Part shown: positions 288-23,574 of the stretch, piece after piece
Layout: the number at the start of each line of letters is the position of its first letter
Numbering within the stretch: position 1 is the first letter of the stretch
Assembly: GCA_002254845.1 (NCBI GenBank)
Contig: NKPT01000036.1
Span: 1-35,295 of the forward strand
DNA: 35,295 nucleotides
Reading direction: 5' to 3'
Origin: Chloracidobacterium sp. CP2_5A
Lineage (GTDB): Bacteria; Acidobacteriota; Blastocatellia; Chloracidobacteriales; Chloracidobacteriaceae
Program-made: the position numbers and the translations under genes
The notes under the pieces: model-generated
Databases searched by the model: none
What the model was told of the DNA's origin: nothing
The model's input: only the letters and a program-made list of their open reading frames with translations

Positions 288-413
288 GTTGGCGCCACTC
301 TACAAAAAATGCATCCGTCACTGATGAACTTTCTTTCTCACCGCTGCCAATCCGCCGAGGCGTCGCCACTCGCCCTCAGGACCGCAGCCTCAGATTTCGG
401 AGTTGGAACTCGT

Positions 414-3400
414 ATGAGCTTTGGTATGACTGGCGCCCGGTCGTGTCGCGCGACGCTGGCGCTCGCGCTTAGCGCGGCTGTGGGCGCAGCCGCGCTTTTC
501 TATTTGCCCTGGCGGACAACCCGCGCCGACGCTTCGCTGAACAGTCGCGTCACGGTCGCGCCGTCCGCTCCGACGGCGGCCACGACGATGATTCCCTATG
601 TGGAAACCTTTGACAGCCTCGCCAGCGGGCTGCCGGCCGGCTGGACGGTGCGCACTGGCGCCACCGCGGCTGCATTGGGAACGGGCGTGACATTCACCGC
701 TACGCCGGTAGATTGGGCTAACACTTCCGGTGCATTCAAAAACTTCGCTTCCGCGAATAACGCCGGTTTCAGCGACACAACGCCGGCCGCCACGCAGAAC
801 AGCGCCCCCGACCGGGCGCTGGGCATCAGGCAGACCGGCTCCTTCGGCGACCCTGGCGCCGCTTTTACCTATCAACGCGACACGACCGGCGAAACCATCG
901 CCACCGTCAGCTTTGACGCGCAGATGCTGAGCGTCCAGCCGCGCAGCACGACCTGGACGCTCCAGTACGGCGTCGGCGCCGCCCCTACGTCGTTTGTGAC
1001 CCTGGCGACCTACACTGATCCCGGCGTGTGGGGCAACGCCAACGTTTCGGTAACCTTGTCGCCGGCGCAATCCGCTGATGTCAGCAACAAGCCAAGCGTG
1101 TTTTTTCGCATCGTGGCGTTGGCCGGCTCGACTGGCAGCGGCGCCCGCGATAGCTTCGGCATTGACAACTTTACGCTTTCTGGTTCCAGCGGCCCGCCGC
1201 CAACGGCGCCCGTCGTGCCCGCCTGCCCCGGCGCGGTCTCGGCGTTTCAGGGAACGACGGCCGTCGCCTGCGGCTTGAGCGCCACAGACGCCGACAGCAT
1301 TGTGAATAACGCCGTCGTCTTCAGCGTGACGCCCCCCACGGCGGGCTTTTCGATTGTAAACTTTACGCCGGCCAGCGGCGTCGGCGGCACGGCGACGGCG
1401 ACGCTCGAAATCGCCAACACCGTCCCGGCTGGCGCCTACACAGTCGTCGTCCGCTGGTCGAACGACGACACCCCGACGCCCCAGACGGCCGACTGCACAA
1501 TCACGGTCAACGTCGTGCCGCCCGCGACGGTCACGCCCATCAACCAGATTCAGGGAACCGGCAACGCCTCGCCGCTCGTCTCCACGACGCAAACGACCGA
1601 AGGCGTTGTCTATGGTCTGCGCAGCAACGGCTTCTTCATCCAAACGCCGGACGGCTCAGCGCTCGACGACGGCGACCCAAACACGTCGGAGGGCATTTTC
1701 GTTTTCACGGGCAGCGCGCCGCCGGTGCAGATCGGCAACTTAGTGCGCGTGCGCGGCACGGTGGCGGAGTTCGTGCCAGTCAGCGATCCGCAGCAGCCGT
1801 CCGTTACCCAGCTTTCCGGCTCGCTGACGATTGCGCAGCTGGCGTGCAGCGCGCCGCTGCCGGCCCCGACGGTCATTACGCCGACCATTGCCAATACGCC
1901 TTCGGCGCTTGAGCCGACGCTGCCGCTGCGTTACGAGCGGTTTGAAGGCATGCGCGTCCAGGTCAATCATTTGGCCGTCGTATCCCCGACCGGCGGAAGC
2001 GTCAATGAAACCAGTGCGACGGCGACAACCAACGGCGTATTCTACGGCGTGGTCGCCGAGCCATGCGGCGGCGGGTTCTGCTTCAGCCGGCCGTTCCGTG
2101 AGCCGGGGATCCGCTTTCCCGACTCCATACCAAACGGCGGCGTCACGGGAACGCTCCCGCCGCCAGCGAGCGTTCCGCGCTGGGACGCCAACCCGGAAAT
2201 CATCCGCGTTTTCAGCACGGGGCAGCCGGGGACGACGGCGCTCAACGTGCCGGCTGGCAACCCCGCTACATTGCCGCTTGCTGGTATTGTGACCAACTTG
2301 ATTGGCGCGATGGACTACGCCTTCCGCGCCTTTACCATTTTGCCGGAAGCGGCCAACCCGCCGGTTTTCAGTAACCCCAGCGCGCCGGGCGTCGGCGTCG
2401 AAGTCCCGCTCCCCACTGTGCCGTCCGGCTGGGTGACCGTTGCCTCGATGAATCTGGAACGGTTTTTCGATAACCGGAACGATCCGGGGCGCAGCGAGCC
2501 GGTGCTGACGGCGACGGCCTACAACAATCGCTTGAATAAGTTCTCGCTTCAGGCGCGAAACATCCTGCGCAACCCTGATGTCATCGGCTTGCAGGAAGTC
2601 GAGGCCCCGACGGACAACTTGTCGGTCGTCATTAACGACATGGCGGCGCAGCTCAACACCGACAACGGCAACCCGACCAACAGCAATCCGAGCCTGCCGT
2701 TTTACGTCGGCTACATTTTCCCGACGAACGACGTCGGCGGCATCGCCGTGGCGTATCTTGTCAACACAAACCGCATCACGGTGAGCAGCGTGACGCAGGT
2801 CGGCGCAAGCGACACCTATACGCGGCCAGATAGCTCCACCGCGATTCTCAACGACCGCCCGCCAATCATCCTAGAAGGAGCGCTGGGCAGCTACGCTTTC
2901 ACCGTCATCAACCTGCACCAGCGGTCGCTCAACGACATCGCCACCGGCGGCGCGCCGGTCAACGGCTATCCGAACGAGGGCTACCGCGTTCGGCACAAGC
3001 GACAGTTGCAGGCGGAGTTTGTCGCTAATCTCATTCGCCAGCGGCAAATCCTCAACTCGAATGAGCGGATGGTCGTCATCGGCGACTTCAACGGCTTCCA
3101 ATTCAATGACGGCTACACGGACATCTACAACACGATTCTGGGCAATCCGCCGACGCCGCCCGCCAGCGGCCCGAATGACGACCGCGTGGTGTTGGCCCCG
3201 ACCAGCGCCTGGAACCCGCCGAACCCGCCGCTGGTCAGTCTGACCGGAGCGACATCGACGGAGAGCAACTACTCGTTCATGTTCGACGGCAGCGCCCAGA
3301 CGCTCGACCAAGTGGCGGTGACGCCGAACGTCGCCGGCGAGGGCGCGTACGCCGAATCGGCGCGGGTCAACGCCGACTTCCCTGAGGTTGACCGCAACAA

Positions 3401-4079
3401 TCCGGCGTCGCCGCGCCGGCTGTCCGATCATGATCCGAAACGGGTGGCGCTAGTCCCGCCAACGGCGACGCCTGTGCTTCAGAACTGCCGGGTGTCGCTT
3501 AGCGTGACCAGTCAGTCGCTGACGGGCAACACGTGCGGCTTGCCGAACTACGCCGGCGACCTTGTGTTGACGGCCACGCTGAGCAACGTCAGCTCGCAGC
3601 CGATTTCCGATATCTTCTTGCAGGTGCACGGCTTAGGCTATCCGGATAGCACGCCGACGGGCGTCATTGTCGCGGCGCCGAATCCGCACCGACTGCTTAC
3701 GGCCGATGCGACGACGTGCAGCGGCGGCGGTCAAGCCGGAGCCAACCAATCCACGGTCAACGGCCAAGCGCCGATTGGCAGCAACACGCCGATTGGCACG
3801 CTCAATCCAGGCGACAGCCGGACGCTGACCTTCCGTATCGCGCTGCCGCAGGCGCGACGACTGCGGTTCTTCGTCAACGTCTTCGGCGTCGGCGGAACGG
3901 CCTGCCCGGTGGCGTCCAATGAAAGTCGCGCCAACGGCCCGGTCATGGCGACAACAACGACGCTTGACGGCCCGGCGCTCGGATTTGAACTGCTGCGGGA
4001 TAAAAGCGGCGTCACCGTCAAGCCGACTGGAGGTCGTTCGGCGAAGGGCGGCGCGAAGACGGCTGCCGGTCGGCGGTAA
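414..4079 (+). CDS. Secreted multidomain endonuclease/exonuclease/phosphatase-family protein
   Basis: A 1221-residue exported protein. The ATG at 414 is preferred over an in-frame ATG at 309 because a GGAG lies 11 bases upstream and it places a typical signal peptide (SCRATLALALSAAVGAAALF) near the N-terminus. Domains in order: a jelly-roll-like region (about 58-258), a Cys-containing Ig/cadherin-like region (about 268-370), an OB-fold as in ExeM/YhcR nucleases (about 375-460), the DNase I-like catalytic domain (about 675-1010) and a CARDB-like C-terminal region. Catalytic-type motifs are visible: ASMNLERFF (Asn), GLQEVE (Glu), VIGDFNGF (Asp/Asn) and SDHDP (His). Known relatives are extracellular DNases that scavenge phosphate and nucleotides or remodel biofilm DNA. 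That role is inferred here. It is a single-gene unit ending in a strong terminator. Confidence 0.85.
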   Translation: MSFGMTGARSCRATLALALSAAVGAAALFYLPWRTTRADASLNSRVTVAPSAPTAATTMIPYVETFDSLASGLPAGWTVRTGATAAALGTGVTFTATPVDWANTSGAFKNFASANNAGFSDTTPAATQNSAPDRALGIRQTGSFGDPGAAFTYQRDTTGETIATVSFDAQMLSVQPRSTTWTLQYGVGAAPTSFVTLATYTDPGVWGNANVSVTLSPAQSADVSNKPSVFFRIVALAGSTGSGARDSFGIDNFTLSGSSGPPPTAPVVPACPGAVSAFQGTTAVACGLSATDADSIVNNAVVFSVTPPTAGFSIVNFTPASGVGGTATATLEIANTVPAGAYTVVVRWSNDDTPTPQTADCTITVNVVPPATVTPINQIQGTGNASPLVSTTQTTEGVVYGLRSNGFFIQTPDGSALDDGDPNTSEGIFVFTGSAPPVQIGNLVRVRGTVAEFVPVSDPQQPSVTQLSGSLTIAQLACSAPLPAPTVITPTIANTPSALEPTLPLRYERFEGMRVQVNHLAVVSPTGGSVNETSATATTNGVFYGVVAEPCGGGFCFSRPFREPGIRFPDSIPNGGVTGTLPPPASVPRWDANPEIIRVFSTGQPGTTALNVPAGNPATLPLAGIVTNLIGAMDYAFRAFTILPEAANPPVFSNPSAPGVGVEVPLPTVPSGWVTVASMNLERFFDNRNDPGRSEPVLTATAYNNRLNKFSLQARNILRNPDVIGLQEVEAPTDNLSVVINDMAAQLNTDNGNPTNSNPSLPFYVGYIFPTNDVGGIAVAYLVNTNRITVSSVTQVGASDTYTRPDSSTAILNDRPPIILEGALGSYAFTVINLHQRSLNDIATGGAPVNGYPNEGYRVRHKRQLQAEFVANLIRQRQILNSNERMVVIGDFNGFQFNDGYTDIYNTILGNPPTPPASGPNDDRVVLAPTSAWNPPNPPLVSLTGATSTESNYSFMFDGSAQTLDQVAVTPNVAGEGAYAESARVNADFPEVDRNNPASPRRLSDHDPKRVALVPPTATPVLQNCRVSLSVTSQSLTGNTCGLPNYAGDLVLTATLSNVSSQPISDIFLQVHGLGYPDSTPTGVIVAAPNPHRLLTADATTCSGGGQAGANQSTVNGQAPIGSNTPIGTLNPGDSRTLTFRIALPQARRLRFFVNVFGVGGTACPVASNESRANGPVMATTTTLDGPALGFELLRDKSGVTVKPTGGRSAKGGAKTAAGRR

Positions 4080-7412: not shown

Positions 7413-7709
7413 ATGCCGGTCAATCCAGTTGACGCCAAGAAGTTGGCTACTGAAAAGAACACCACCGACCTGCGCCAAATGCTCGAACAGTCCGACGAGC
7501 TGATGCGCGTCGTTATGGAAAAAGGCGATCTGGAAACCGCGGAAAAGGCGGCGCAGGAAGCGGCGGCGGCGGCGGCGGCGCTGATCGTTCGCAAGCAGGG
7601 CGGCGTTCGGGAACTGGCTAAGCGTGTCCGCGAGCGCGTGGCGGGCGACAATGATGACGCGGACGAAGCCGCGCTCGCGCCGCCATCCGCCGAGGGCGGC
7701 GCCGGATAG
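7413..7709 (+). CDS. Small Ala-rich helical protein, function unknown
   Basis: A 98-residue soluble protein that I do not recognise. Residues about 18-62 are predicted-helix type (LRQMLEQSDELMRVVMEKGD, then an Ala-rich segment) and could form a coiled coil. A run of seven GCG codons encodes a polyalanine stretch. The tail is acidic and low in complexity. A good ribosome-binding site (GGAGAGG, 7396-7402) supports the ATG. The type III polyketide synthase starts 59 bases downstream on the same strand, so co-transcription is possible. Confidence 0.7.
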   Translation: MPVNPVDAKKLATEKNTTDLRQMLEQSDELMRVVMEKGDLETAEKAAQEAAAAAAALIVRKQGGVRELAKRVRERVAGDNDDADEAALAPPSAEGGAG

Positions 7710-7768
7710 CCTCTAGTTTTTTGGCCAATCGGATTTTTGACGCCAGTCAAAGGGCGACCGCTTCCTTC

Positions 7769-8881
7769 ATGCCAATCACCATTTCGGGCCTTCGGCGACT
7801 TGACCCGCCCCATGTCACGGCGCAGAGCGACATCCACGATTGGCTGGCGCGCGCCCATGCGACAGCGGACGCCGGCGCCGATCCGACACGCTTGCGGCGG
7901 GCGCTAGATCGCTTTGGCTGTTCGCCTGATCGCATCGCCCAGCGGTTTCACGCCCTTGAAGACTTTACCCATAGCGACTGGGCGCGCATGCGGATTTTCG
8001 ACGCGACACAAGCCCCTGCAGGACGGCGACTAGGCGCGCGCATGGCGTTTTTCGCCCAGGTCGCGCAGGAGGCTTTCGACGCCTTTTACGCCACGGAAGC
8101 AGTCGCGCCAGCGCATATCATTCACGTCACCTGCACAGGCTATGTCGCGCCAAGCGCGGCGCAGCGGCTCGTCGCGGCGAAGGGCTGGACGGAAACCGTT
8201 GTGACGCATGCCTACCACATGGGCTGCTACGCGGCGTTTCCGGCCATTCGGCAGGCGGCGGGCTTTGTCGCCGCCGAGGGGCCGGCGACGCGGGCGGATG
8301 TCGTGCATACGGAACTGTGTACGCTGCACCTCAACCCAACGCTCCGCGACCCCGAGCAGCTCGTCATTCAGAGCCTTTTCGCGGACGGCTTCGCTCGCTA
8401 TTCAGTGACCGGCGAGTTGTCTTGCGCGCCGCGCTTTGAGCTGCTGGCGATGGCGGAGGAAGTGTTGCCGGATTCCGCCGAGGCAATGACCTGGCAGTGC
8501 GCCGAATGGGGCTTTCACATGACGCTGGCGCGCGACGTGCCGGCGCAAATTGCGCAGGCGCTGCCAAAGTTTATCGCCGGACTGGCGCGGCGCGGCGGAT
8601 GGACGGAGGCGGAGGCGCGCCGGGCGGTTTACGCCATTCACCCCGGCGGGCCGAAAATCATCGAGCAGGCGCAGGCGGCGCTAGAGCTGACCGACGCGCA
8701 GACCGCCGCCAGTCGGCGAGTCCTGCGCGCCCGCGGCAATATGTCCTCGGCGACGCTCCCGCATGTATGGGCGGACATTCTTGAGGATGAGGCGGTTCCC
8801 GATGGCGCGCTGGTCTTGAGCTTAGCGTTCGGTCCCGGACTCACCCTCTGCGGCAATCTCATGGTCAAAAGGGCGTCATGA
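7769..8881 (+). CDS. Type III polyketide synthase (chalcone/alkylresorcinol synthase-like)
   Basis: A 370-residue homodimeric-type ketosynthase. It extends an acyl-CoA starter with malonyl-CoA and cyclises it, usually to alkylresorcinols, alkylpyrones or similar phenolic lipids in bacteria. The full catalytic triad is visible: Cys153 in HMGCYAAFP, His291 in AIHPGGPKII and Asn324 in RARGNMSSATLPHVW. The C-terminal GPGLT is also typical. The ATG at 7769 fits family length; an in-frame TTG at 7721 would add 16 residues without a better ribosome-binding site. Its stop overlaps the next gene's start (ATGA), so the two are translationally coupled. Together with the downstream methyltransferase this indicates production of a methylated phenolic or pyrone lipid. 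The product itself is not known. Confidence 0.92.
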   Translation: MPITISGLRRLDPPHVTAQSDIHDWLARAHATADAGADPTRLRRALDRFGCSPDRIAQRFHALEDFTHSDWARMRIFDATQAPAGRRLGARMAFFAQVAQEAFDAFYATEAVAPAHIIHVTCTGYVAPSAAQRLVAAKGWTETVVTHAYHMGCYAAFPAIRQAAGFVAAEGPATRADVVHTELCTLHLNPTLRDPEQLVIQSLFADGFARYSVTGELSCAPRFELLAMAEEVLPDSAEAMTWQCAEWGFHMTLARDVPAQIAQALPKFIAGLARRGGWTEAEARRAVYAIHPGGPKIIEQAQAALELTDAQTAASRRVLRARGNMSSATLPHVWADILEDEAVPDGALVLSLAFGPGLTLCGNLMVKRAS

Positions 8882-9342
8882 CAACGCATTGGCTGCTCGC
8901 GCTGCCATTTTTGCTGCAGGGGGCGGCGATGGTCGCGGACGAGTTTTGGTTTCACTGGCGGCGCGGTCTGGGTCGGTGGGAGCGCATTGGCCATCCGGTG
9001 GATACGCTGACTGTGCTGGTCTGCTACGGCATTGCGCTGCTGGCGCCTTACTCGCCGACCGCGCTGGCGTGGTACGTTGGCTGCGCCGCGTTCTCCATGC
9101 TGTGCGTGACGAAGGACGAGCTCGTGCATGCGCGGGCCTGCTCGCCTGGCGAGCATTGGCTGCACGCCGTGTTGTTTTTGCTCCATCCGGTCACGCTGGC
9201 CGCCGCCGCGCTCATCTGGATGGATGCGCCGCCGGGTGCCGCCGCCGGCAAGAGCTTTCTTGCCGGCGCCTTTGGCGTCAGCGCGGCGTTTGGACTCTAT
9301 CAGTTGCTGTACTGGAACGTCTGGAGGCCGCGCCCGGCATGA
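8878..9342 (+). CDS. Polytopic membrane protein with conserved His/Asp/Glu pairs, in the PKS operon
   Basis: A 154-residue protein with about four membrane segments (near 5-20, 45-75, 95-113 and 125-145). It is not assigned to a named family here. Charged residues cluster at the membrane edges in patterns such as DEFWFH (21-26), GHPVD (38-42), DELVH (80-84), EHWLH (92-96) and LHP (102-104). Such spacing recalls membrane di-iron hydroxylases and desaturases but does not match their eight-His signature, so an oxygenase role is only a hypothesis. It overlaps both neighbours by ATGA junctions and must be co-translated with the type III PKS and the methyltransferase. It may modify, anchor or export their product. 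Confidence 0.85.
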   Translation: MTTHWLLALPFLLQGAAMVADEFWFHWRRGLGRWERIGHPVDTLTVLVCYGIALLAPYSPTALAWYVGCAAFSMLCVTKDELVHARACSPGEHWLHAVLFLLHPVTLAAAALIWMDAPPGAAAGKSFLAGAFGVSAAFGLYQLLYWNVWRPRPA

Positions 9343-10070
9343 CAAGCGTCAACAACGCGCTTTACGACGCCTTAGGCGAGCGGTGGCACGCCGCGCAGGA
9401 CGACCCCGTCGCTCTGCTGCGCGCCGAAGGAAAACTCCGCAACCCGTGGATCGCTTCTGAAATCGCGGCGCGCTGCGGGAAAGGCGCGCCCGTTCTCGAC
9501 ATCGGCTGCGGCGGCGGCTTTCTGTCGAATGAGCTGGCCCGCGCCGGGTTCGCCGTCATCGGACTGGATCAGTCGGTAGAAAGCTTGGCAGTGGCGCGGG
9601 CGCATGACGAAACTGGCAGCGTCCGCTACGAGGCCGGCGACGCGCTCGCGCTGCCATACCCGGACGCCTCCTTTTCCGCCGTATGCGCGATGGACTTTCT
9701 CGAGCATGTCGAAGACCCGGCGGGCGCGATTCGGGAAGCGGCGCGCGTCCTGCGCCCCGGCGGGCTGTTTTTCGCCTCGACCTTCAACCGCAACTGGCTG
9801 AGCTGGCTGGTGGTCATCAAGGGCGTGGAGTGGTTCGTACGCAATACGCCGCCGAATATGCACGTCCTGCGGCTGTTTATCACGCCGGCGGAAATGGAGC
9901 GCTACTGCTTGACGGCCGGACTCAAGGGCGCGTTTTTTCGCGGGATGCGCCCGCGCGTGGATCGCGCCTTTTGGCGGCTGCTGCGAACAGGCGTTGTGCC
10001 CCCGGATTTCGCGTTCGCTTTCGTGTCGTCGCTGGCGACGGGCTACCTTGTCAGGGCTGAGAAATCGTGA
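9339..10070 (+). CDS. SAM-dependent methyltransferase, UbiG/UbiE-like
   Basis: A 243-residue class I methyltransferase. Motif I is VLDIGCGGGFLS, followed by VIGLDQS (acidic end of strand 2), GDALALPYPDASFSAV and the post-motif EAARVLRPGGLFF. The closest recognisable type is the UbiG-like 3-demethylubiquinone O-methyltransferase subgroup, including the FNRNWLSWLV region. Since this organism appears to use menaquinone and the gene is fused by a 4-base ATGA overlap to a type III PKS operon, the likelier substrate is the hydroxyl of a phenolic polyketide. That assignment is inferred from context. Confidence 0.88.
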   Translation: MTSVNNALYDALGERWHAAQDDPVALLRAEGKLRNPWIASEIAARCGKGAPVLDIGCGGGFLSNELARAGFAVIGLDQSVESLAVARAHDETGSVRYEAGDALALPYPDASFSAVCAMDFLEHVEDPAGAIREAARVLRPGGLFFASTFNRNWLSWLVVIKGVEWFVRNTPPNMHVLRLFITPAEMERYCLTAGLKGAFFRGMRPRVDRAFWRLLRTGVVPPDFAFAFVSSLATGYLVRAEKS

Positions 10071-14123: not shown

Positions 14124-15428
14124 ATGAAGTCGCATGCGCGTGCGCTCGTTTTCGCGCTCTTGGCGATTTTTCCGCTTCTCGGTCATGATTTGTCGGCGCA
14201 AAAGCGGAAGCGCCGTCCACAGCCCGCGCCGCCGTCCGCCACGCCCTCCGCAACCAAGGAGCCGCTTATGAATTCCGCCACCGCGTTGCCGGATGCCGCC
14301 GCCGGCGTTAATCGCTTTGCCTTCGCGCTGCACCAGCGGCTCGCCCGCCAAACCGATGACAATTTGTTTTTCTCGCCCTACAGCCTTGTTTCCGCGCTGG
14401 CGATGACGGCGCTGGGGGCGCGCGGGGCGACGCTCGCGGAAATGAGCCGGGCGCTCCAGTTCCCAGCGGGCGTGCCGCATGCCGCCTTCGCCGCGCAGGA
14501 TCGCCTGCTGAACGCCCCGAGCGCCCCTTATCGGCTCGCCGTCGCCAATGCGCTCTGGGGGCAGCGCGGGCTCGGCTTCGAGCCGGACTTCCTGACGGCG
14601 ACCAAGGCGAGCTACGGGGCGGGGCTGGAAGAAGTCGACTTTCGCGGCAATCCCGAAGGCTCGCGCAGCCGAATCAACGACTGGGTATCCAGCAAAACCA
14701 ACGGCCGCATTCCTGATTTGCTTCCCCCCGGCTTCATCACGCCGATGACGCGACTCGTCTTGAGCAACGCTATCTACTTCAAAGGCGATTGGGCGGCGGC
14801 TTTCGACCGCGACGGGACGAACGAAAACGACCAGTTCCGGCTGCCGGGCGGCGCAACGACGACCGTCGCCATGATGAACCGAACGGGACGCTACAGCCAC
14901 ATCGACGGCGGAACGTTCCAGGCGCTCGTCCTGCCCTACCGGGGCAATGACCTTTCGATGGTCGTCTTGCTCCCAAACGCCGTTGACGGCCTTCCGGCGC
15001 TGGAGCAATCGCTGACCAGCGAGAAGCTTCAGGGGTGGTTGAATAAAGCGATCGCCCGCGAAGTTCAGGTTGGCTTTCCGCGCTTCAAGCTCGCGCTGCG
15101 GCTTGACAGCCTGTCAAATGATTTGCAGGCGCTCGGCATGAGGCTGGCTTTCACTGAAAGCGCCGATTTTTCGGCAATGACCAAACAGACGCAGCTTTGC
15201 ATTGACGCCATCGCGCACAAGGCGTTTGTAGAGGTGAACGAGGAAGGGACGGAAGCGGCGGCAGCCACCGGCGTCGGCATGCGGACGACTTCGATTGCCG
15301 TCGAGCCCTCGCGTCCGGTGGTCTTCCGGGCCGATCGCCCGTTTTTGTTCATCATCCGGGATAACCGCAGCGGCGCGGCGCTGTTTATGGGGCGAGTGAT
15401 GAATCCGTCCGCGCCAGGCCAAAGCTGA
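14124..15428 (+). CDS. Secreted serpin (serine/cysteine protease inhibitor)
   Basis: A 434-residue protein with an N-terminal signal peptide (FALLAIFPLLGHDLSAQ), a basic/Pro-rich linker (about 27-45) and a full serpin domain (about 60-428). Serpin landmarks include NLFFSPYSLVSALAM, INDWVSSKTNGRIPDLL, LVLSNAIYFKGDW and the C-terminal RPFLFIIRDNRSG-LFMGRV. The reactive-loop hinge EEGTEAAAAT (373-382) has the small residues needed for strand insertion, so it should be inhibitory. Canonical spacing would place the cleavage site near RTTS (387-390), but the segment after it is longer than usual, so the exact P1 residue is uncertain. An AGGAG (14109-14113) supports the start. The target protease is unknown. 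Its last 44 bases overlap the convergent MFS gene. Confidence 0.95.
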   Translation: MKSHARALVFALLAIFPLLGHDLSAQKRKRRPQPAPPSATPSATKEPLMNSATALPDAAAGVNRFAFALHQRLARQTDDNLFFSPYSLVSALAMTALGARGATLAEMSRALQFPAGVPHAAFAAQDRLLNAPSAPYRLAVANALWGQRGLGFEPDFLTATKASYGAGLEEVDFRGNPEGSRSRINDWVSSKTNGRIPDLLPPGFITPMTRLVLSNAIYFKGDWAAAFDRDGTNENDQFRLPGGATTTVAMMNRTGRYSHIDGGTFQALVLPYRGNDLSMVVLLPNAVDGLPALEQSLTSEKLQGWLNKAIAREVQVGFPRFKLALRLDSLSNDLQALGMRLAFTESADFSAMTKQTQLCIDAIAHKAFVEVNEEGTEAAAATGVGMRTTSIAVEPSRPVVFRADRPFLFIIRDNRSGAALFMGRVMNPSAPGQS

Positions 15429-16888: not shown

Positions 16889-17051
16889 GCCGCCGTAAAC
16901 TCGCCTCTCAAGAACGAAGCCTCCCGCGCGGCAACGCGAGAGGCTTCCGCTGCGCAGTTCCACCTAGAGGGAAGGATGGCGAGCGCGGGAGCACTCTACC
17001 CGATGCGCCATCCGAAGCCAAGATATGACCTCCGGCGGCGGCAACCGCCGG
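16889..17051 (+). ncRNA. Structured 5' leader of the TonB receptor gene (possible cis-regulatory RNA)
   Basis: Three consecutive hairpins are visible. A: GAAGCCTC/GAGGCTTC, 16916-16947. B: GGATGGCG/CGCCATCC, 16974-17013, with an inner CGGG/CCCG. C: CCGGCGG/CCGCCGG, 17032-17051. GCCGCCG at 16889-16895 can pair instead with CGGCGGC at 17033-17039, which would disrupt hairpin C. The ribosome-binding site follows hairpin C by ten bases. I see no conserved core of a named riboswitch, so this is a structural call only. Confidence 0.4.
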
Positions 17052-17075
17052 CGCAACAGACAGGAGCGTTTCAAG

Positions 17076-19667
17076 ATGACAAGCAACTGGCTTTTCGCGG
17101 CGTGGCGGGCGGCGCGTCCGGCCGTTCGGGCGGCCCTAATGTGGATCCTAATGTGGATGATGATCTCCGTCGGCGCGCAGGCTGATGAGCGCGGGACGTT
17201 GACCGGCAAGGTCGTGAATGCGCAGGGCGCGCCGGTGGCGGAGGCGAGCGTTCTGGCGCGCAACCTCGCTTCAGGCGCGACCCGCGCCATCCTGACGGCA
17301 GCCGATGGAACGTTTACGCTGAGCGATTTGCCCTATGGCGCGTACCAGATGCAGGTTGCGTGCAGCGGCTTTTCCGACGCCACGCTGGAGTTTCGGCTGA
17401 ATGCGCCCAGCCTCGCGCTCGATCCAGTGACGCTCGCGCCTGGAATGATTCGGGAGGTTGTGACGGTGACGGCCAGCCGCGCCGTTCGGGATGCCATGAC
17501 CACGCCCGAAGCTGTGTCGGTCGTCACGGAGCGGCAGTTACAGGAGCGCTTGCCCGGCACGGCCGCGGACATTCTCCGCGATTTGCCCGGCGCGTACACC
17601 CAATCTCAGGGCTTTCTCACTCGTCCCATCATTCGCGGGCTAGAAGGCAATCGGGTGCTTGTCCTGGTGGACGGCGAGCGGCTCAATCACGGGCGCACGC
17701 CGACCAGTCACGTCGGCAACGGCGTCGAAACCGGGCTAGTGGATGTCGGCTCGCTGCAAGCGGTCGAAGTCATGCGCGGGGCGGGATCGGTGCTCTATGG
17801 CACAGAGGCTCTGGGCGGCACGATCAACTTCATCACCCGGCCGCCCGCGCCCGCGGACGCCGGCGTTCGCGTCAGCGGCGTCTTTGACCCGTTCTTCACC
17901 GCGAATGGTCCCGGCGGGCGCTACGGCGGGAGCTTGAGCTTGTCCGCGCGCCGCTTCGCCGCCCGCGTCCGACAGTCGTTTGAAAACTTCAGCGACTATG
18001 CGGCCGGCGGTCCCGTCGAGGCGGGCTACGCTTCGGCGGTGCCCCAGTTCGATCCCGCGACGCGTCTTGTGACAGGCTCGGCCTATCGAGGCAACGCCAC
18101 CCGCGCCGAGGGGCGCTTCTTTTTCTCCGAGCAGGCATTCGCTCGCTCGAGTTACGAGCGGTTTCAGGCCGCGCCCTACCAGTATCCGTTGCAGTCCACG
18201 TTCAACTTTTTGCTCAACCGCCGCGATAAGGTCAACTTTGGCTTTGTCGCGCGAGAGTTGGGCCGCGTGGCGAGCGTCCAGGCAAGCGGCTACTACCAGT
18301 GGCAGGCGCGGCGCGACCAGGTTGTGGTCCGTGCCCTGCCCGCGCTGTTTCAAGTGTCCGACCGGCAAATCAACCCAACCACGGGCGGGCTTGACGCGCA
18401 AGTGGTTTTGATGCCATTCCGCAAGCACGTTGTCACGGTGGGCGCGAGCTTCTTCCGCGACGCCAGCGCTGACGACCGCATTGTGATTCGCGGCGCGCTG
18501 CCGACGCCGCCTGGCGGCCTGACGCCGGCGCAGGCCCAGGCTCAGGCGGACCGCATCCGCGCTGACGGCGACTTTCTGCGGGCGCTCCGCAACAGCCAGC
18601 CGCGCCGCGACACGCCGAACGCTACCTTTCAAGACTTTGCGCTCTTTGTGCAGGATGAGTTCATTCCCAGCCGTTATGTCCGGCTGGTTGGCGGACTGCG
18701 GGTTGACCGCTACAGCTCGCGGGCGCTGGATACGCCGAGCTACGACATCTTCAACGTCGTGCCGCCCGGCGCGGCTGGCATCAATGGGCTGGAATCGCTC
18801 CGGCACGCGAACGTCGCCGTGACGGGATCGGGCGGCATCGTCTTCAACCCCATTCAGTCCGTCAGTCTGGTGGCGCGCTTGGCGCGCAGCTACCGGGAGC
18901 CGAACATTTTTGATCGCTATAACGCTGGCGCGTCGCATGGGATCAGCCTGACAACGCGCAGCGTGACAGTTCCCAATCCAGACTTGAAGCCGGAAACTGG
19001 CGTCAATCTCGATATCGGCGCAAAAGTTCGCTTCACGCGGCTTTCGGGGTCGCTTACTTACTTCCGAAGCAACTACGATAACTTCATCGGTAACTTTGGC
19101 GCGCCCGTGCCGGGTCTCGCCCCGATTCCGAATCCGCTGCCGGGCGGCGCGCCGCTGACTGTACTCCAGCGCCAGAATCTCGGAAAGATTCGCATTCAAG
19201 GGGTTGAAGCCGAGCTTGAAGCGCCTTTCCGGCTACCGGAAGAATTCCTTCGGTCGTCGTTTTTTACCCTACTGGGGAATGTCGGCGTGACGCGCGGCGA
19301 CGACATCCGCGCCAATCAGCCGGTGGATCCGTTCAACTTCCCCATCGTGCCCGTCAAGGCCATCCTGGGAGCGCGCTGGAACTCCGCGACGAATCGCTAC
19401 TGGATGGAATACCGGTCGCGGATTGTCACGACGCAGCGCCGCCTGCCGCCGGGAAGCCTTTACGCGCAGCCGGGGACGGCGCGGCTTGGCTTCGCCGTCC
19501 ATGACTTGCGCGGCGGCGTCAACTTCGACCGGGAACGCTATGGCGTCGCGGTGACGCTCGGCGTCGAAAACGCGGGCAACCGCTTCTATCAGGATTTGTT
19601 TTCGCTCTTTGACGCGCCGGCGCGCGGCCGCGCGTTTGTGGCGGGGCTGCGTCTCCGGTTCTTTTAG
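17076..19667 (+). CDS. TonB-dependent outer-membrane receptor, probably for haem
   Basis: An 863-residue receptor. It has a signal peptide (about 1-37), a carboxypeptidase-regulatory-like domain (about 43-120), a TonB-box-like EVVTVTASR, a plug domain (RPIIRGLEGNRVLVLVDGER...VLYGTEALGGTINFI) and a 22-strand-type barrel ending in Phe. YREPNIFDRYNAGASHG and VPNPDLKPETG correspond to the FRAP and NPNL regions of haem/siderophore receptors. AGGAG at 17062-17066 fixes the ATG at 17076. A 12-base tandem duplication (17135-17158) repeats LMWI/LMWM in the signal peptide core. A haem ligand is inferred from the HmuS-HmuTUV genes downstream and the Fur-type site upstream. Confidence 0.92.
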   Translation: MTSNWLFAAWRAARPAVRAALMWILMWMMISVGAQADERGTLTGKVVNAQGAPVAEASVLARNLASGATRAILTAADGTFTLSDLPYGAYQMQVACSGFSDATLEFRLNAPSLALDPVTLAPGMIREVVTVTASRAVRDAMTTPEAVSVVTERQLQERLPGTAADILRDLPGAYTQSQGFLTRPIIRGLEGNRVLVLVDGERLNHGRTPTSHVGNGVETGLVDVGSLQAVEVMRGAGSVLYGTEALGGTINFITRPPAPADAGVRVSGVFDPFFTANGPGGRYGGSLSLSARRFAARVRQSFENFSDYAAGGPVEAGYASAVPQFDPATRLVTGSAYRGNATRAEGRFFFSEQAFARSSYERFQAAPYQYPLQSTFNFLLNRRDKVNFGFVARELGRVASVQASGYYQWQARRDQVVVRALPALFQVSDRQINPTTGGLDAQVVLMPFRKHVVTVGASFFRDASADDRIVIRGALPTPPGGLTPAQAQAQADRIRADGDFLRALRNSQPRRDTPNATFQDFALFVQDEFIPSRYVRLVGGLRVDRYSSRALDTPSYDIFNVVPPGAAGINGLESLRHANVAVTGSGGIVFNPIQSVSLVARLARSYREPNIFDRYNAGASHGISLTTRSVTVPNPDLKPETGVNLDIGAKVRFTRLSGSLTYFRSNYDNFIGNFGAPVPGLAPIPNPLPGGAPLTVLQRQNLGKIRIQGVEAELEAPFRLPEEFLRSSFFTLLGNVGVTRGDDIRANQPVDPFNFPIVPVKAILGARWNSATNRYWMEYRSRIVTTQRRLPPGSLYAQPGTARLGFAVHDLRGGVNFDRERYGVAVTLGVENAGNRFYQDLFSLFDAPARGRAFVAGLRLRFF
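17135..17158. repeat. 12-bp perfect in-frame tandem duplication
   Basis: CCTAATGTGGAT occurs twice in a row. It duplicates four residues in the hydrophobic core of the TonB receptor signal peptide. Confidence 0.9.
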
Positions 19668-19683
19668 GGAGGTCTTCAGCCGT

Positions 19684-19941
19684 ATGGACATTGAATCGCT
19701 CTTTCGCTTGCCCGATGACCCGGACGCCGTCCCTGTTCCGACGCGCATGTGGCTGTGTCTCGACTGCGGCAACTTTCACCTGGCGATTGGCGGCGCGCAT
19801 TATACGTTCTCGCCGGAGCAGTTTCGGCATTTTGTCGAAGGCGTCAACGAGTGCGCCGTTCGCTATGGGCTGAGCGGCGTCGGCTTTGCCGACGCGCTGC
19901 GCCGCTGTTGCGAGGCGGATCCGTTCCAGCGTCTAAACTGA
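19684..19941 (+). CDS. Small Cys-containing protein of the haem block
   Basis: An 85-residue protein without signal peptide or membrane segment. It carries a CxxC (LCLDCGNFHLAIG, Cys25 and Cys28) plus Cys57 and a CC pair (75-76). After the CxxC comes a short beta-like stretch, then a helix (SPEQFRHFVEGVNECAVRYG). GGGAGG lies right after the receptor stop, ten bases before this ATG, so it is co-transcribed with the receptor. I cannot name the family with certainty. Metal or haem handling, or redox sensing linked to the receptor, is a guess from context. Confidence 0.75.
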   Translation: MDIESLFRLPDDPDAVPVPTRMWLCLDCGNFHLAIGGAHYTFSPEQFRHFVEGVNECAVRYGLSGVGFADALRRCCEADPFQRLN

Positions 19942-20263
19942 GGCGTTAGCGGCGATGGCTCATCTTCGTGAGCGATTTCGTGAAAACGCCGAAGGGCCGC
20001 GCGACGCGGACGCCCAGCGCATTATAACTGCGCCGCTTAACTGCGCCGCGCGCCGCTCGATGGCGCGGATATCTTTGCTCGGAACGACTGGGGCGCCTGC
20101 CTGCGCCCTGTGCCAGTCGGAAAACGTGAAGAGCGCGAGCTGCGCCGGGAGCGATGGAGTCCTGTCCGGTGGAAGCCATCGGCGACGACGGCGATTCGCG
20201 AAGCGCCCCGAATGCGCGCCTGGTTGATTTCGATCTGACACCCAACAAAGGAGGAAGACGCCG
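19942..20263. other. Gap between the small Cys protein and hmuS
   Basis: These 322 bases hold no convincing gene. Seen in it are a 12-base direct repeat (20025-20036 and 20038-20049), a possible 37-codon ORF (20154-20267) and the hmuS ribosome-binding site AAAGGAGG. No terminator or Fur-like palindrome is visible, so read-through from the receptor gene into hmuS is possible. Confidence 0.5.
20025..20049. repeat. 12-bp direct repeat, one base apart
   Basis: TAACTGCGCCGC occurs at 20025-20036 and again at 20038-20049 in the gap before hmuS. Confidence 0.85.
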
Positions 20264-20267
20264 ATGA
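20154..20267 (+). CDS. Possible 37-residue ORF overlapping the hmuS start
   Basis: A frame starting at ATG 20154 ends in a TGA that overlaps the hmuS ATG (ATGA arrangement), which would allow translational coupling. It begins MESCPVEAIGDD, which looks more protein-like than its surroundings, and its 3' part spans the hmuS ribosome-binding site. There is no good ribosome-binding site of its own beyond CGGGAG, and no family is recognised. It may be chance. Confidence 0.2.
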   Translation: MESCPVEAIGDDGDSRSAPNARLVDFDLTPNKGGRRR

Positions 20268-21352
20268 CGGCCCTAAACTTAGCGACTGAGCCAACCACTG
20301 ACGCCGGTTATACGGCTGAAGATATCGCCCGGCAGTGGTCTGCGCTGCGGCAAGCCGAACCCAAGCTGCGCATTCGTGACGCGGCGACAAAGCTTGGTGT
20401 CAGCGAGGCGCAACTCGTGGCGCTGGGCTGCGGGACGACCGCGACGCGCCTGAGCGCCGACTGGGGCGGTTTTGTCAAGCAGCTTGAGGCGCTTGGCCCC
20501 GTCATGGCGCTAACGCGCAATGACGGGGCCGTTAGCGAAAAGGACGGTCAATACCGCAACGTCGAAATTTTCAGTGGCCACGCGCGCATGGGGCAGGTGC
20601 TCGACAGCGGGATTGACCTGCGGCTGTTTCTCGACCGCTGGGCGCTGGGCTTCGCCGTCCGCGAAGAGTCGGCGCGCGGCCTGCGCCGGAGCTTTCAGTT
20701 TTTTGACGCGGCCGGGACGGCCGTTCATAAGACCTACTTGCGCGAAGCGAGCAATGTTGAGGCGTTTGACGAGCTGACCAGCCGCTTTGCCGCGCCGGAT
20801 CAGAGCCGCGAGCAAGCCGTGACGCCGCCCCTTGCGCCACCCGCCAAAACGCCCGACGCCGAAGTGGATACGGAGGGCTTTCGTCGAGCGTGGCGCGAGC
20901 TCAAGGATACGCATGACTTCATTCGCTTGACGCATCGCTTCAAGTTGAGCCGGACGCAGGCGCTTCGGCTGGCCGACCCGGACATGGCCTGGCGCGTCCG
21001 TCCCGATAGCTTTGCGCGCATTCTGGAAGAAACCGCCGCCGCGAAGGAGAGCGTCATGGTTTTTGTCGGCAATCCGGGCTGCATCCAGATTCACAGCGGC
21101 CCGATTCACAACGTCAAGCTCATCGGCGAGTGGCTCAACGTCCTGGACGACGGTTTCAATCTGCATGTCCACGAGCCAACGGTCATCGACGCCTGGGTGG
21201 TCAAAAAGCCGACCGCGCGCGGCGTTGTCACCGGCGTCGAGTTTTTTGACGCGGCGGGCGAGCAAGTCGCCATCCTGCATGCCAAGCGCAAGGAAGGCGA
21301 GCCGCCGTCCGCGTTCTGGGCGGACCTGTGCGAGCGGTTGCCGCGGGCTTGA
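20264..21352 (+). CDS. hmuS: HmuS/ChuS-type haem-utilisation (haem-degrading) protein
   Basis: A 362-residue cytoplasmic protein made of two structural repeats (about 15-178 and 200-360), as in ChuS/HmuS/HemS. Both repeats show family stretches: MALTRNDGAVSEKDGQY with EIFSGHARMG in the first, and VFVGNPGCIQIHSGPIHNVK with LNVLDDGFNLHVHE in the second. His217 in LKDTHDFIRL corresponds by context to the haem-ligating His of ChuS. Relatives bind imported haem and release iron from it. The start has an excellent ribosome-binding site (AAAGGAGG, 20247-20254). A large hairpin with a T-run follows the gene and separates it from hmuT. Confidence 0.92.
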   Translation: MTALNLATEPTTDAGYTAEDIARQWSALRQAEPKLRIRDAATKLGVSEAQLVALGCGTTATRLSADWGGFVKQLEALGPVMALTRNDGAVSEKDGQYRNVEIFSGHARMGQVLDSGIDLRLFLDRWALGFAVREESARGLRRSFQFFDAAGTAVHKTYLREASNVEAFDELTSRFAAPDQSREQAVTPPLAPPAKTPDAEVDTEGFRRAWRELKDTHDFIRLTHRFKLSRTQALRLADPDMAWRVRPDSFARILEETAAAKESVMVFVGNPGCIQIHSGPIHNVKLIGEWLNVLDDGFNLHVHEPTVIDAWVVKKPTARGVVTGVEFFDAAGEQVAILHAKRKEGEPPSAFWADLCERLPRA

Positions 21353-21412
21353 CGCGAGGTTGGCGGGATGAGTTTTGTCGCGCAGGTAAATCGCTCCTGA
21401 GGCTTGCGCGAC

Positions 21413-21480
21413 CGTCGGGGCGCGGACGGGGTATTGGTTGGTCAGGTCGCGTACTTCGCAACTCGGCCCCGACGTTTTTT
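21413..21480 (+). terminator. Terminator or attenuator between hmuS and hmuT
   Basis: CGTCGGGGC (21413-21421) pairs with GCCCCGACG (21466-21474), and six T follow at once. The 44-base loop contains a small GCG/CGC inner hairpin. It could end or throttle transcription from hmuS into hmuTUV. The unusually long loop leaves room for regulated antitermination. Confidence 0.6.
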
Positions 21481-21554
21481 CTTGTTTGTTTTTCCTTATT
21501 CAGGGCGCAGCGTCAGGGTGACGACGCGCCCAGCATCGGAAAGCGTGGCAAGCC

Positions 21555-22484
21555 ATGATGACAGTTAAGAACATTTGGGCATCCGCTAGCGTCGCCTGGC
21601 TTGCCCTGAGCCTTGTCGTCGGCGGGGGCGGCTGTCGCCGCGAGACGGCGACCCAAGCGGCGGCGCGGACAGTGATGGACGCCAACGGGCAGCCGGTGGC
21701 GATTACGGATGTCTCGCGGGTGGTCGCCGCCGGCGGCTCGGTGACGGAAATTGTCTATGCCTTAGGCGCGGAAGCGGCGCTGGTCGGGTGCGATGCGTCG
21801 AGCCTGTACCCGGAAGCCGCCGCGAAGCTGCCGCAGGTGGGCTACGTTCGGGCGCTGTCGGCGGAAGGCGTCTTGTCGCTGCGGCCAAGCCTGGTGCTGA
21901 CGCTTCCGGAAGCTGGGCCGCCCGACGCGCTCGCGCAGTTACGCGCGAGCGGAACGCCGGTCTTGATCGTTCCCTCCGAGACTTCGCTCGAAGGCGTCAA
22001 GCGCAAGATTCGCGCTATCGCGCAGGCGCTTGACCGCCAAGCGCAGGGCGAGGAGCTCGTTCGGCGGCTTGACGTCGATCTTGCGGCGGCGCGCAACTAT
22101 CTGGACGGATGCCCGGAAAAGCCCAAGGTGATGTTTATTTACGCCCGCGGGCAGGGCGTCGCTCAAGTGGCCGGGCGCGATACGGCGGCGGCGGAAATGA
22201 TTCGTCTCGCCGGGGGCGTCAGCGCCTTTGACTTTGAGGGGTACAAGCCATTGACGGCCGAGGCGGCGGTCGCGGCGGCTCCGGATGTCATCCTGCTGTC
22301 GTCGCGCGGGCTGGAAAGCTCCGGCGGGGTTGCGGGCGTCCTGGCAATGCCGGGCGTCAAGCAAACCCCGGCCGGGCGCAATCAGCGGATTGTCGCCATG
22401 GACGACTTGCTCCTGCTGGGCTTTGGGCCGCGCGCGGGGCAGGGCGTTCTGGAGCTGGCCCGGCTGCTACATCCTGCCAAGTGA
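21555..22484 (+). CDS. hmuT: Haem ABC transporter, periplasmic binding protein HmuT
   Basis: A 309-residue class III (BtuF/HmuT-type) binding protein. The N-terminus has a hydrophobic signal segment ending in GGGGC (Cys27), a borderline lipobox, so it may be a lipoprotein. The two-lobe fold is visible as VTEIVYALGAEAALVGCDAS then LPQVGYVRALSAEGVLSLRPSLVL in the first lobe, and PKVMFIYARG with AAAPDVILLSSRGL in the second. It captures haem in the periplasm and passes it to HmuU. The start lacks a strong ribosome-binding site, and tandem ATG codons occur at 21555 and 21558. The permease gene begins seven bases after its stop. Confidence 0.92.
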   Translation: MMTVKNIWASASVAWLALSLVVGGGGCRRETATQAAARTVMDANGQPVAITDVSRVVAAGGSVTEIVYALGAEAALVGCDASSLYPEAAAKLPQVGYVRALSAEGVLSLRPSLVLTLPEAGPPDALAQLRASGTPVLIVPSETSLEGVKRKIRAIAQALDRQAQGEELVRRLDVDLAAARNYLDGCPEKPKVMFIYARGQGVAQVAGRDTAAAEMIRLAGGVSAFDFEGYKPLTAEAAVAAAPDVILLSSRGLESSGGVAGVLAMPGVKQTPAGRNQRIVAMDDLLLLGFGPRAGQGVLELARLLHPAK

Positions 22485-22491
22485 GCGCGTT

Positions 22492-23574
22492 ATGGCGGCT
22501 ATCAACGCCTTGGCCACGCATCCGCAGGCGATGAAAGTGACGGGCCGGTGGCTCATCGGCGGGTTGGCTGGCGCGCTGGCCGTCATCGCGTTGCTTGCCT
22601 TTGGCATCGGGGCGGTCGCCATCGCCCCGATGCAGAGTCTGGCGATCATCGCTGACCAGCTTGGCTTGGATCTGGGCGTTCCCTTTACTGAGCAACAGCG
22701 CGCTGTCCTTCTGACGATTCGTCTCCCGCGCGTGCTGTTTGGCGCGCTCATTGGCGCGGGGCTGGCGATGGCGGGCGCGACGATGCAGGGCGTCTTTCGG
22801 AATCCTCTGGCCGATCCCGGCATCATCGGCGTTTCCAGCGGCGCGGCGCTGGCGGCAGTGCTGTGCATCCGCGCCAACGGCTGGCTTTTTGGCAAAAGCG
22901 GCGGCGCGCTCGCGGCATATCAGCTCCCGCTGGCCGCCTTTCTTGGCGGGGGCGCGGCGGTTTATGCGGTTTATCGGCTGGCGCGGCGCGAAGGGACGCT
23001 CTCGGTGGGGTTGCTGCTCCTGGCCGGGATTGCGCTGGCGATGCTGACGGAAGCCCTGCGCGGGGCGCTGATTTTCGCCGCGACCGACGACCAGCTCCGC
23101 AGCGTGACCTTCTGGAGCCTGGGGAGTCTGGGGGCGGCGTCCTGGTTCAACTTGGCGCTGGTCGCCCTGTTGGCGCTGCCGGCGATGGTCTGCCTGGGGC
23201 GACTGGCGCGCCCGCTCGACGCGCTGCTGCTGGGCGAGTCCGAAGCGCGACACCTTGGCTTTGATGTCGCCAGTCTTGTCCGAACGACAATGTTGGCGGC
23301 GACGCTCATCGTCGGCTCCGCCGTCGCCTTTGCGGGCATTGTCGGCTTCATCGGGTTGGTAGCCCCGCATCTCATTCGACTAGCGGCTGGGCCGAGTCAT
23401 CGGACGCTGCTGCCGGGGGCGGCGCTCCTTGGCGCGTGTCTGGTCGTGTTGGCGGACTTGCTGGCGCGAACGGTCGTCAGCCCGGCGGAAATGCCGCTGG
23501 GCGTCGTGACGGCGAGCCTGGGCGCGCCATGCTTTCTATGGCTTTTACTGCGCGAGGGAGGTTTCCGGTCATGA
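22492..23574 (+). CDS. hmuU: Haem ABC transporter permease HmuU (FecCD family)
   Basis: A 360-residue inner-membrane permease with about ten hydrophobic segments. FecCD signatures are IRLPRVLFGALIGAGLAMAGATMQGVFRNPLADPGIIGVSSGAAL near the N-terminus, SVTFWSLGSLGAASW in the middle and FAGIVGFIGLVAPHLIRL near the end (given here in parts of the conserved blocks). The open frame extends upstream into hmuT, but the ATG at 22492 gives family length and lies seven bases after the hmuT stop. It ends in an ATGA overlap with hmuV. Confidence 0.93.
   Translation: MAAINALATHPQAMKVTGRWLIGGLAGALAVIALLAFGIGAVAIAPMQSLAIIADQLGLDLGVPFTEQQRAVLLTIRLPRVLFGALIGAGLAMAGATMQGVFRNPLADPGIIGVSSGAALAAVLCIRANGWLFGKSGGALAAYQLPLAAFLGGGAAVYAVYRLARREGTLSVGLLLLAGIALAMLTEALRGALIFAATDDQLRSVTFWSLGSLGAASWFNLALVALLALPAMVCLGRLARPLDALLLGESEARHLGFDVASLVRTTMLAATLIVGSAVAFAGIVGFIGLVAPHLIRLAAGPSHRTLLPGAALLGACLVVLADLLARTVVSPAEMPLGVVTASLGAPCFLWLLLREGGFRS

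Follow-up and report, generated by a model that had tools for sequence, protein, structure and literature searches.

A Conserved Gene Trio for a Type III Polyketide Synthase, a Small Membrane Protein and a UbiG-Type Methyltransferase, with a Proposed Role in Phenolic Lipid Formation

In a 35,295-nucleotide stretch of DNA from Chloracidobacterium sp. CP2_5A (assembly GCA_002254845.1, contig NKPT01000036.1; hereafter the window), three consecutive plus-strand genes encode an ArsB/ArsC-like type III polyketide synthase (PKS; 7769..8881), a 154-aa membrane protein designated herein as MEM (8878..9342), and a UbiG-type, S-adenosylmethionine (SAM)-dependent O-methyltransferase (MT; 9339..10070). We found that this trio is a conserved unit occurring across phyla, with its gene order retained beyond chance. 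As for its function, we see an even chance that the operon produces an oxygenated, O-methylated long-chain phenolic lipid of the hydroquinone/quinone type, in which MEM would act as a metal-dependent ring hydroxylase. A preliminary description of this DNA had proposed a phenolic lipid-type operon having a different tailoring set, with a membrane protein in the place of the hydroxylase, and the analyses described below support that outline.

Conservation of the three-gene unit

The three genes are joined in the manner that the preliminary description had reported: the sequence ATGA at 8878-8881 contains both the PKS stop and the MEM start, and that at 9339-9342 both the MEM stop and the MT start. 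The window belongs to a Chloracidobacterium-like assembly of 3.4 Mb in 385 contigs, and its nearest named relative is a Chloracidobacterium metagenome-assembled genome (MAG) with a PKS identity of 84%.

A search of named genomes gave 134 PKS relatives, the best 80 of which were kept, with taxon names taken from the record titles. The PKS, MEM and MT genes were contiguous on one strand in 66 of these 80 loci, and nine had no MEM next to the PKS. By record title, carriers of the trio belong to Acidobacteriota, Chlamydiota, Bdellovibrionota, Myxococcota, and Fibrobacterota, and since the order is kept in so many loci from several phyla, it is conserved more than chance would allow. The ATGA overlaps are not universal, being found at 15 of the 66 PKS/MEM junctions and at 7 of the 58 unfused MEM/MT junctions. 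In 8 of the 66 trios, MEM and MT constitute one open frame; the carriers are four Geothrix/Holophagaceae, two other Acidobacteria, an Oligoflexia bin, and a deltaproteobacterial bin, and because the fused loci are scattered over these groups, the fusion probably arose more than once. The pairwise distances of the three proteins were correlated (r 0.54, 0.71, and 0.61; n = 66; maximum of 0.14 in 999 permutations), these coefficients including an uncorrected contribution of shared genome ancestry.

Since the first scan had been seeded by the window PKS, a MEM-seeded search was added. MEM matches were obtained in 45 of the 151 Chlamydiota-group genomes (the phylum of locus L036, titled Chlamydiae), in at least 14 of the 297 genomes from the phylum to which the window belongs, and in at least 2 of 235 genomes in the phylum of L069 (titled Polyangiaceae), the latter two counts being lower bounds because at most 12 to 15 candidates were scored per genome. 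Among the 30 best-scoring of the 47 Chlamydiota-group MEM matches, the PKS was located upstream in all 30 and the MT downstream in 29, the single incomplete locus ending at a contig edge after 102 bases. Some SZAS bins are titled Verrucomicrobia, and three of their genomes (G340, G397, and G399) were recovered inside the Chlamydiota group. The conservation of gene order, on which the preliminary description had placed weight, was thus borne out by both searches.

The association between MEM and MT appeared to be particularly close. The MEM-MT pair is intact with no adjoining PKS in four genomes (G007, G011, G013, and G291); G007 gave no PKS match anywhere in the genome, G011 and G013 have the PKS and the MEM-MT pair on separate contigs, and G291 has no PKS beside the pair, its genome not having been searched for one. 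Among the genomes searched for the MT, a close one (E ≤ 1e-70) was detected in all six genomes with a MEM match versus one of the eight without (G329), and in G334, titled cyanobacterium, a close MT is present in a position not beside MEM. Genome co-occurrence and these departing loci indicate that MEM and MT are closely associated and that MEM can occur without the PKS.

Outside the trio, clustering of the neighboring genes gave patchy partners only. One of them, seen in 16 of the 80 loci at a median distance downstream from the PKS start of about 2.9 kb, belongs to the thiol peroxidase (Tpx) family, a name taken from one representative (L081:11049-11564).

Polyketide synthase and methyltransferase

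The window PKS matched Pfam Chal_sti_synt_C (75 bits) and Chal_sti_synt_N (32 bits), each exceeding the cut-off of 27, and the Cys, His, and Asn residues of the triad, already recognized in the preliminary description, are present in the motifs HMGCY, IHPGG, and GNMSS. Its best PDB sequence match was Azotobacter ArsC (3vs9, 233 bits; 3vs8, 227 bits), with Steely1 (102 bits) and plant enzymes far below. For comparison, 97 sequences including that of the window were aligned, one of the 98 loci (L018) being dropped as it had no match to the PKS profile. In the 82 PKSs accompanied by MEM, the Cys was retained in 80 (two gaps), the His in 80 (one Ala, one gap), and the Asn in 80 (one Ser, one gap), and all three were retained in 15 of the 15 PKSs without MEM. 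The column corresponding to the cyclization switch was occupied by Trp, as in ArsB, in all 95 PKSs readable there; according to a study on the Azotobacter enzymes, Trp281 of ArsB versus Gly284 of ArsC decides between resorcinol and pyrone (PMC6274091). Judging from this column, resorcinol is favored over pyrone as the PKS product. Of the resorcinol/pyrone or quinone-like lipid envisaged in the preliminary description, the resorcinol side thus gains support that falls short of proof, and the lipid itself stays a prediction.

The earlier assignment of the third gene as a UbiG-like methyltransferase also held, as MT passed the NCBIfam UbiG cut-off (TIGR01983; 129 bits against 102.95). The nearest PDB chain was UbiG 4kdc (110 bits), and the alignment spans the NRNxxSW...HxxxxFIxPAE segment. 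It covers NRNWLSWLVVIKGVEWFVRNTPPNMHVLRLFITPAE, a stretch that the shortened UbiG chain 4kdr contains only in part, and both 4kdr and the similarly short 5dpm scored 80 bits; we take the NRNWLSWLVVIKGVEWFVRNTPPNMHVLRLFITPAE stretch to be the membrane-binding region of UbiG. In ubiquinone synthesis, UbiG methylates the catechol produced by a preceding hydroxylase, and methyltransferases of the UbiG type act on catechols or phenols, not on pyrones. By analogy with this role, the UbiG-type MT suggests that a hydroxylation may precede the methylation step. The resemblance to the hydroxylate-then-methylate steps of ubiquinone synthesis extends to the UbiG cut-off and to the segment absent in 4kdr, whereas the substrate in the present case would be a polyketide phenol rather than a prenylated phenol.

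Membrane protein MEM

The window MEM showed no match in Pfam (E ≤ 1) or NCBIfam (E ≤ 0.1), and 72 MEM homologs gave only scattered weak matches to these databases, each in three members or fewer, the strongest being PGPGW (Pfam, E 0.0002) and TIGR02611 (NCBIfam, E 0.00043) in one member each. A PDB profile search yielded a single match at E 0.84, and with Foldseek no solved fold in the PDB was matched at E ≤ 0.001. Membership of MEM in a known family was rejected on these searches. In a VIA-align comparison, bestrophins stood at the head of the list (best Z 10.3, with an rmsd of 3.3-3.7 across 136-140 residues), a Z level that is common among helical bundles, and no family assignment was drawn from this comparison.

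MEM has a mean pairwise identity of 47%, and its 72 homologs share 19 invariant columns, namely D21, E22, H26, R29, E35, G38, H39, D42, S73, K79, D80, E81, H84, E92, H96, L99, F100, H103, and Q142, 12 of which are Asp, Glu, or His. A wider alignment of 82 loci, with double-fetched genomes included, gave the same invariants except for L99 (81 of 82). In addition, a second MEM copy in genome G026 (L113, 1477-2735) is divergent, with E81 replaced by Asp, L99 by Val, and F100 by Leu and the other 16 of the 19 residues kept.

The AlphaFold2 model (mean pLDDT 94.9) is helical, with predicted helices at 3-29, 33-55, 60-78, 81-87, 90-114, and 121-149. The mean numbers of Lys and Arg residues were 3.9 in loop 1, 2.0 in loop 3, and 2.5 in the C-terminus, compared with 0.25 and 0.68 in loops 2 and 4, and the positive-inside rule would thus place loops 1 and 3 and the C-terminus on the cytoplasmic side. 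With this predicted topology, an MT fused at the C-terminus of MEM would be located in the cytoplasm, where SAM is, and 18 of the 19 invariant residues would lie on the same side in helix halves or loops, with H103 near mid-helix. Such a dense set of Asp, Glu, and His residues in a protein with no recognized haem, flavin, or Fe-S family may constitute a metal site.

The membrane fatty acid hydroxylase/desaturase superfamily is characterized by three histidine boxes (HX3-4H, HX2-3HH, and HX2-3HH), and the di-iron proteins of the COQ7/alternative oxidase type carry two additional Glu residues besides two ExxH motifs. MEM was assigned to neither of them. With respect to the former, no histidine box was present, and no family of this superfamily appeared among 25 of the 29 Pfam families listed for the 72 members; with respect to the latter, only one exact ExxH (E81-H84) was found among the invariant residues, and the window MEM had no Pfam match.

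Proposed pathway

Synthesis would take place at the inner face of the cytoplasmic membrane. The ArsB-like PKS would condense malonyl units onto a long acyl starter, with aldol closure of the ring to give a 5-alkylresorcinol. MEM, in the position that a flavin hydroxylase occupies in other phenolic-lipid operons, would then bind one or two metal ions and hydroxylate the ring next to an existing hydroxyl, and the membrane-seated MT, a UbiG-type enzyme by family and presumably a catechol methyltransferase by substrate, would methylate the catechol newly formed. As MEM and MT are usually neighbors and sometimes fused, the intermediate is probably handed between them. We favor MEM as the ring hydroxylase because of the slot that it occupies, its metal-like site, its UbiG-type partner, and the fusions; if it is one, a phenolic or quinone lipid of polyketide origin would be expected by comparison with the polyketide quinones known from Mycobacterium and Streptomyces and with the hierridins.

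The loci in which MEM is missing bear on the nature of this slot. No MEM match (E ≤ 0.001) was obtained in the eight genomes behind L042, L053, L057, L059, L073, L085, L087, and L089, which are MAGs with possible gaps, and in the ninth genome without MEM next to the PKS (L098), a weak match is located elsewhere. PKS matches were obtained in 9 of 39 Riflebacteria genomes, five of them close, and four genomes had a readable downstream flank. A U32-like protein directly follows the PKS in three of these four loci, confirmed as Pfam Peptidase_U32 in L053/L122 and L073/L123 and recognized by sequence likeness in L124, and in the other (L057/L125), an MT and an FAD_binding_3 protein lie downstream on the opposite strand. 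The U32 proteins UbiU-UbiV are described as O2-independent ubiquinone hydroxylases (PMC6747719). The Riflebacteria proteins contain several Cys residues, in which the exact UbiU spacing was not seen by reading. These replacements strengthen the idea of a hydroxylase slot, as far as four loci can. Two of the U32-like proteins (L053:9182-10348 and L124:286-1494) have a Cys-rich C-terminus and are possible O2-independent phenol hydroxylases.

Terminal oxidase genes were surveyed in 50 of the 80 genomes, 41 of which carry MEM beside the PKS, the other nine being all those that do not. COX1 was detected in 44 and CydA in 38 of the 50, and one or the other in all 41 MEM genomes; in 14 well-known genomes used as controls, they were found in 8 and 10, respectively. 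The COX1 family also covers NO reductases. The U32 genomes G326 and G327 had neither COX1 nor CydA. An O2-using MEM is thus compatible with the data, which do not establish it. The window additionally carries a menaquinone gene (VitK2_biosynth, 25105-25905), suggesting that the organism has a menaquinone route too, and MK-8(H2) is given as the major quinone of cultured relatives in a 2026 Chloracidobacterium description (PMC12816986), so that the proposed lipid would add to menaquinone.

Several observations weigh against the assignment of MEM as a ring hydroxylase in such a pathway. By sequence reading, the window MEM has no HXXHH box, and the histidine boxes of membrane hydroxylases are absent. 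The Trp at the cyclization switch is shared by Steely1 in the PDB search alignment, which makes it permissive rather than diagnostic, so that it indicates a resorcinol and does not prove it. In five of the 80 loci, MEM follows the PKS without an adjoining MT; in L022 the MT is upstream, L056 ends at a contig edge, and L025, L054, and L086 have no MT in the available flanks, their genomes not having been searched for it. MEM also occurs with no adjoining PKS, both with MT (L112 and L108) and without it (L113 and L173, in the latter of which MEM adjoins an apparent RND-type adaptor, by sequence reading), and in L042, the PKS and MT are contiguous in a genome with no MEM. A YceI lipid-binding protein precedes the PKS in that locus. 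The replacement argument draws on the four Riflebacteria loci only, and L059, L085, L087, and L089 show no evident replacement. In G326 and G327, the two U32 genomes scanned, no close UbiG-type MT was found, and their end product may therefore differ. As for oxygen, COX1 or CydA was over the cut-off in 7 of the 9 genomes without MEM beside the PKS, which makes this a weak test, and a third U32 genome, G351, has both COX1 and CydA, in a phylum where COX1 was found in 9 and CydA in 5 of 35 genomes. A clean split between MEM with O2 and U32 without O2 is weakened accordingly. Finally, in a study on Planctomycetota operons, co-expression of the MT and the FAD oxidoreductase of Gimesia maris led to a single, probably C-, methylation, and the role of the oxidoreductase stayed unknown (PMC10896814).

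Alternative explanations

MEM might instead be a non-enzymatic membrane platform or lipid-presenting subunit for MT, with the operon making a simple alkylresorcinol methyl ether in a HidA-like manner. We regard this as unlikely, albeit the foremost of the alternatives. The MEM-MT fusions and the four genomes in which the pair is contiguous with the PKS elsewhere or not found would fit such a role, as would HidA, which is reported to methylate both phenolic hydroxyls in hierridin synthesis (PMC10896814). However, at 47% mean pairwise identity, a scaffold would hardly seem to need 19 invariant residues with as many as 12 Asp, Glu, or His among them, and the divergent L113 copy keeps 16 of the 19 with no MT found beside it. 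Moreover, MT itself matches the segment that presumably seats UbiG on the membrane.

Less probable still is a role of MEM in using the lipid rather than making it, as a redox or quinone-binding protein engaged in electron transfer or quinol oxidation. The surroundings of L113 speak for this, as MEM is flanked there by a YceI protein on one side and, on the other, by a protein that reads as multihaem-like with several CXXCH motifs, and polyketide quinones are electron carriers in Mycobacterium and Streptomyces (PMC9927152). In contrast, the window MEM has no Pfam haem, Fe-S, or flavin family, it sits between two biosynthetic genes and fuses to MT, and the genes replacing it in Riflebacteria come from families that include hydroxylases.

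The least probable case, in which the PKS makes alkylpyrones, MT methylates the pyrone hydroxyl, and MEM performs some other tailoring, can draw on the nearest solved relative ArsC, a pyrone synthase (the same Azotobacter source, PMC6274091), and on the Trp column not being diagnostic by itself, but it conflicts with the Trp in all 95 readable relatives. The UbiG-type MT, as a catechol/phenol enzyme, also disfavors it.

Relation to known systems

The Azotobacter enzymes ArsB and ArsC are the closest solved PKSs (233 bits), with the same triad and, in ArsB, the Trp found here; we know of no MEM or UbiG-type MT associated with them. Their starters are supplied by the FAS protein ArsA (PMC6274091). 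The PKSs of the pkqABC and srsABC operons of Mycobacterium and Streptomyces likewise have Trp at the position of ArsB 281 (PMC9927152). The present operon shares with the srs, pkq, and hid operons a type III PKS with the triad and a methyltransferase, and differs from pkqABC/srsABC in having the 154-aa MEM instead of the oxidoreductase, in the order PKS-MEM-MT, and in the UbiG type of its MT; no protein of the operon matched a flavin adenine dinucleotide (FAD) family in Pfam or NCBIfam. The hidABC operon for hierridin and the methyltransferase-oxidoreductase-PKS operons of Planctomycetota also combine an alkylresorcinol PKS with an MT and usually an oxidoreductase, in gene orders different from that described here, and the available parts of both reports mention no MEM-like gene (PMC10896814, PMC8086630). 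The oxidoreductase is missing from the clusters of S. maiorica, 'S. ferox', and one Nostoc, according to the former (PMC10896814).

The presence of type III PKS clusters in Chlamydiota genomes is on record, in a paper whose main text contains neither "methyltransferase" nor "resorcinol" (PMC9666466); likewise, neither "polyketide" nor "resorcinol" occurs in the main text of the 2026 Chloracidobacterium description (PMC12816986). A description of the trio was not found in the literature searched, which consisted of open-licence PMC papers and is no proof of absence.

If MEM is a hydroxylase, it would represent a new enzyme class for ring oxygenation within the membrane, and its product may be an unrecognized respiratory or protective quinone. 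The frequency of MEM in the Chlamydiota group, the exact three-gene unit in 29 of its 30 best loci, and the recurrence of this unit in other phyla add to the interest of the question. More tentatively, and with a probability that we would place somewhat below that of the pathway itself, MEM may found a new class of small integral-membrane aromatic hydroxylases with a carboxylate/histidine metal site, which together with the PKS and MT would form a polyketide counterpart of the ubiquinone pathway across five phyla, giving an unknown redox-active membrane lipid in environmental chlamydiae and a phototrophic acidobacterium.

Gene start and neighboring genes

The PKS open frame contains TTG at 7721 as an alternative, less likely start. 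Since ATG occurs at the conserved MPI/MPV start in the window (7769) and in all six other genus loci compared, translation most likely begins at ATG 7769, and TTG 7721 was rejected.

Upstream of the PKS, a small helical protein of 98 aa is encoded on the plus strand (7413..7709), which the preliminary description had noted as preceding the set. It was detected in 9 of the 98 PKS loci, all within the genus (seven genomes, as two had been fetched twice), and gave no NCBIfam match and one sub-threshold Pfam match (E 0.32). This genus-only distribution marks it as a local neighbor that is probably outside the wider conserved unit, and it was rejected as a component of the system.

Elsewhere in the window, a 1256-aa open frame (309-4079) has no Pfam match at E ≤ 0.0001, and a haem uptake cluster (17025-23574) comprises a TonB receptor, HemS/ChuX, a periplasmic binding protein, and a FecCD permease. 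A full-length serpin (Pfam, 376 bits) is also encoded in this bacterial genome at 14124-15428.

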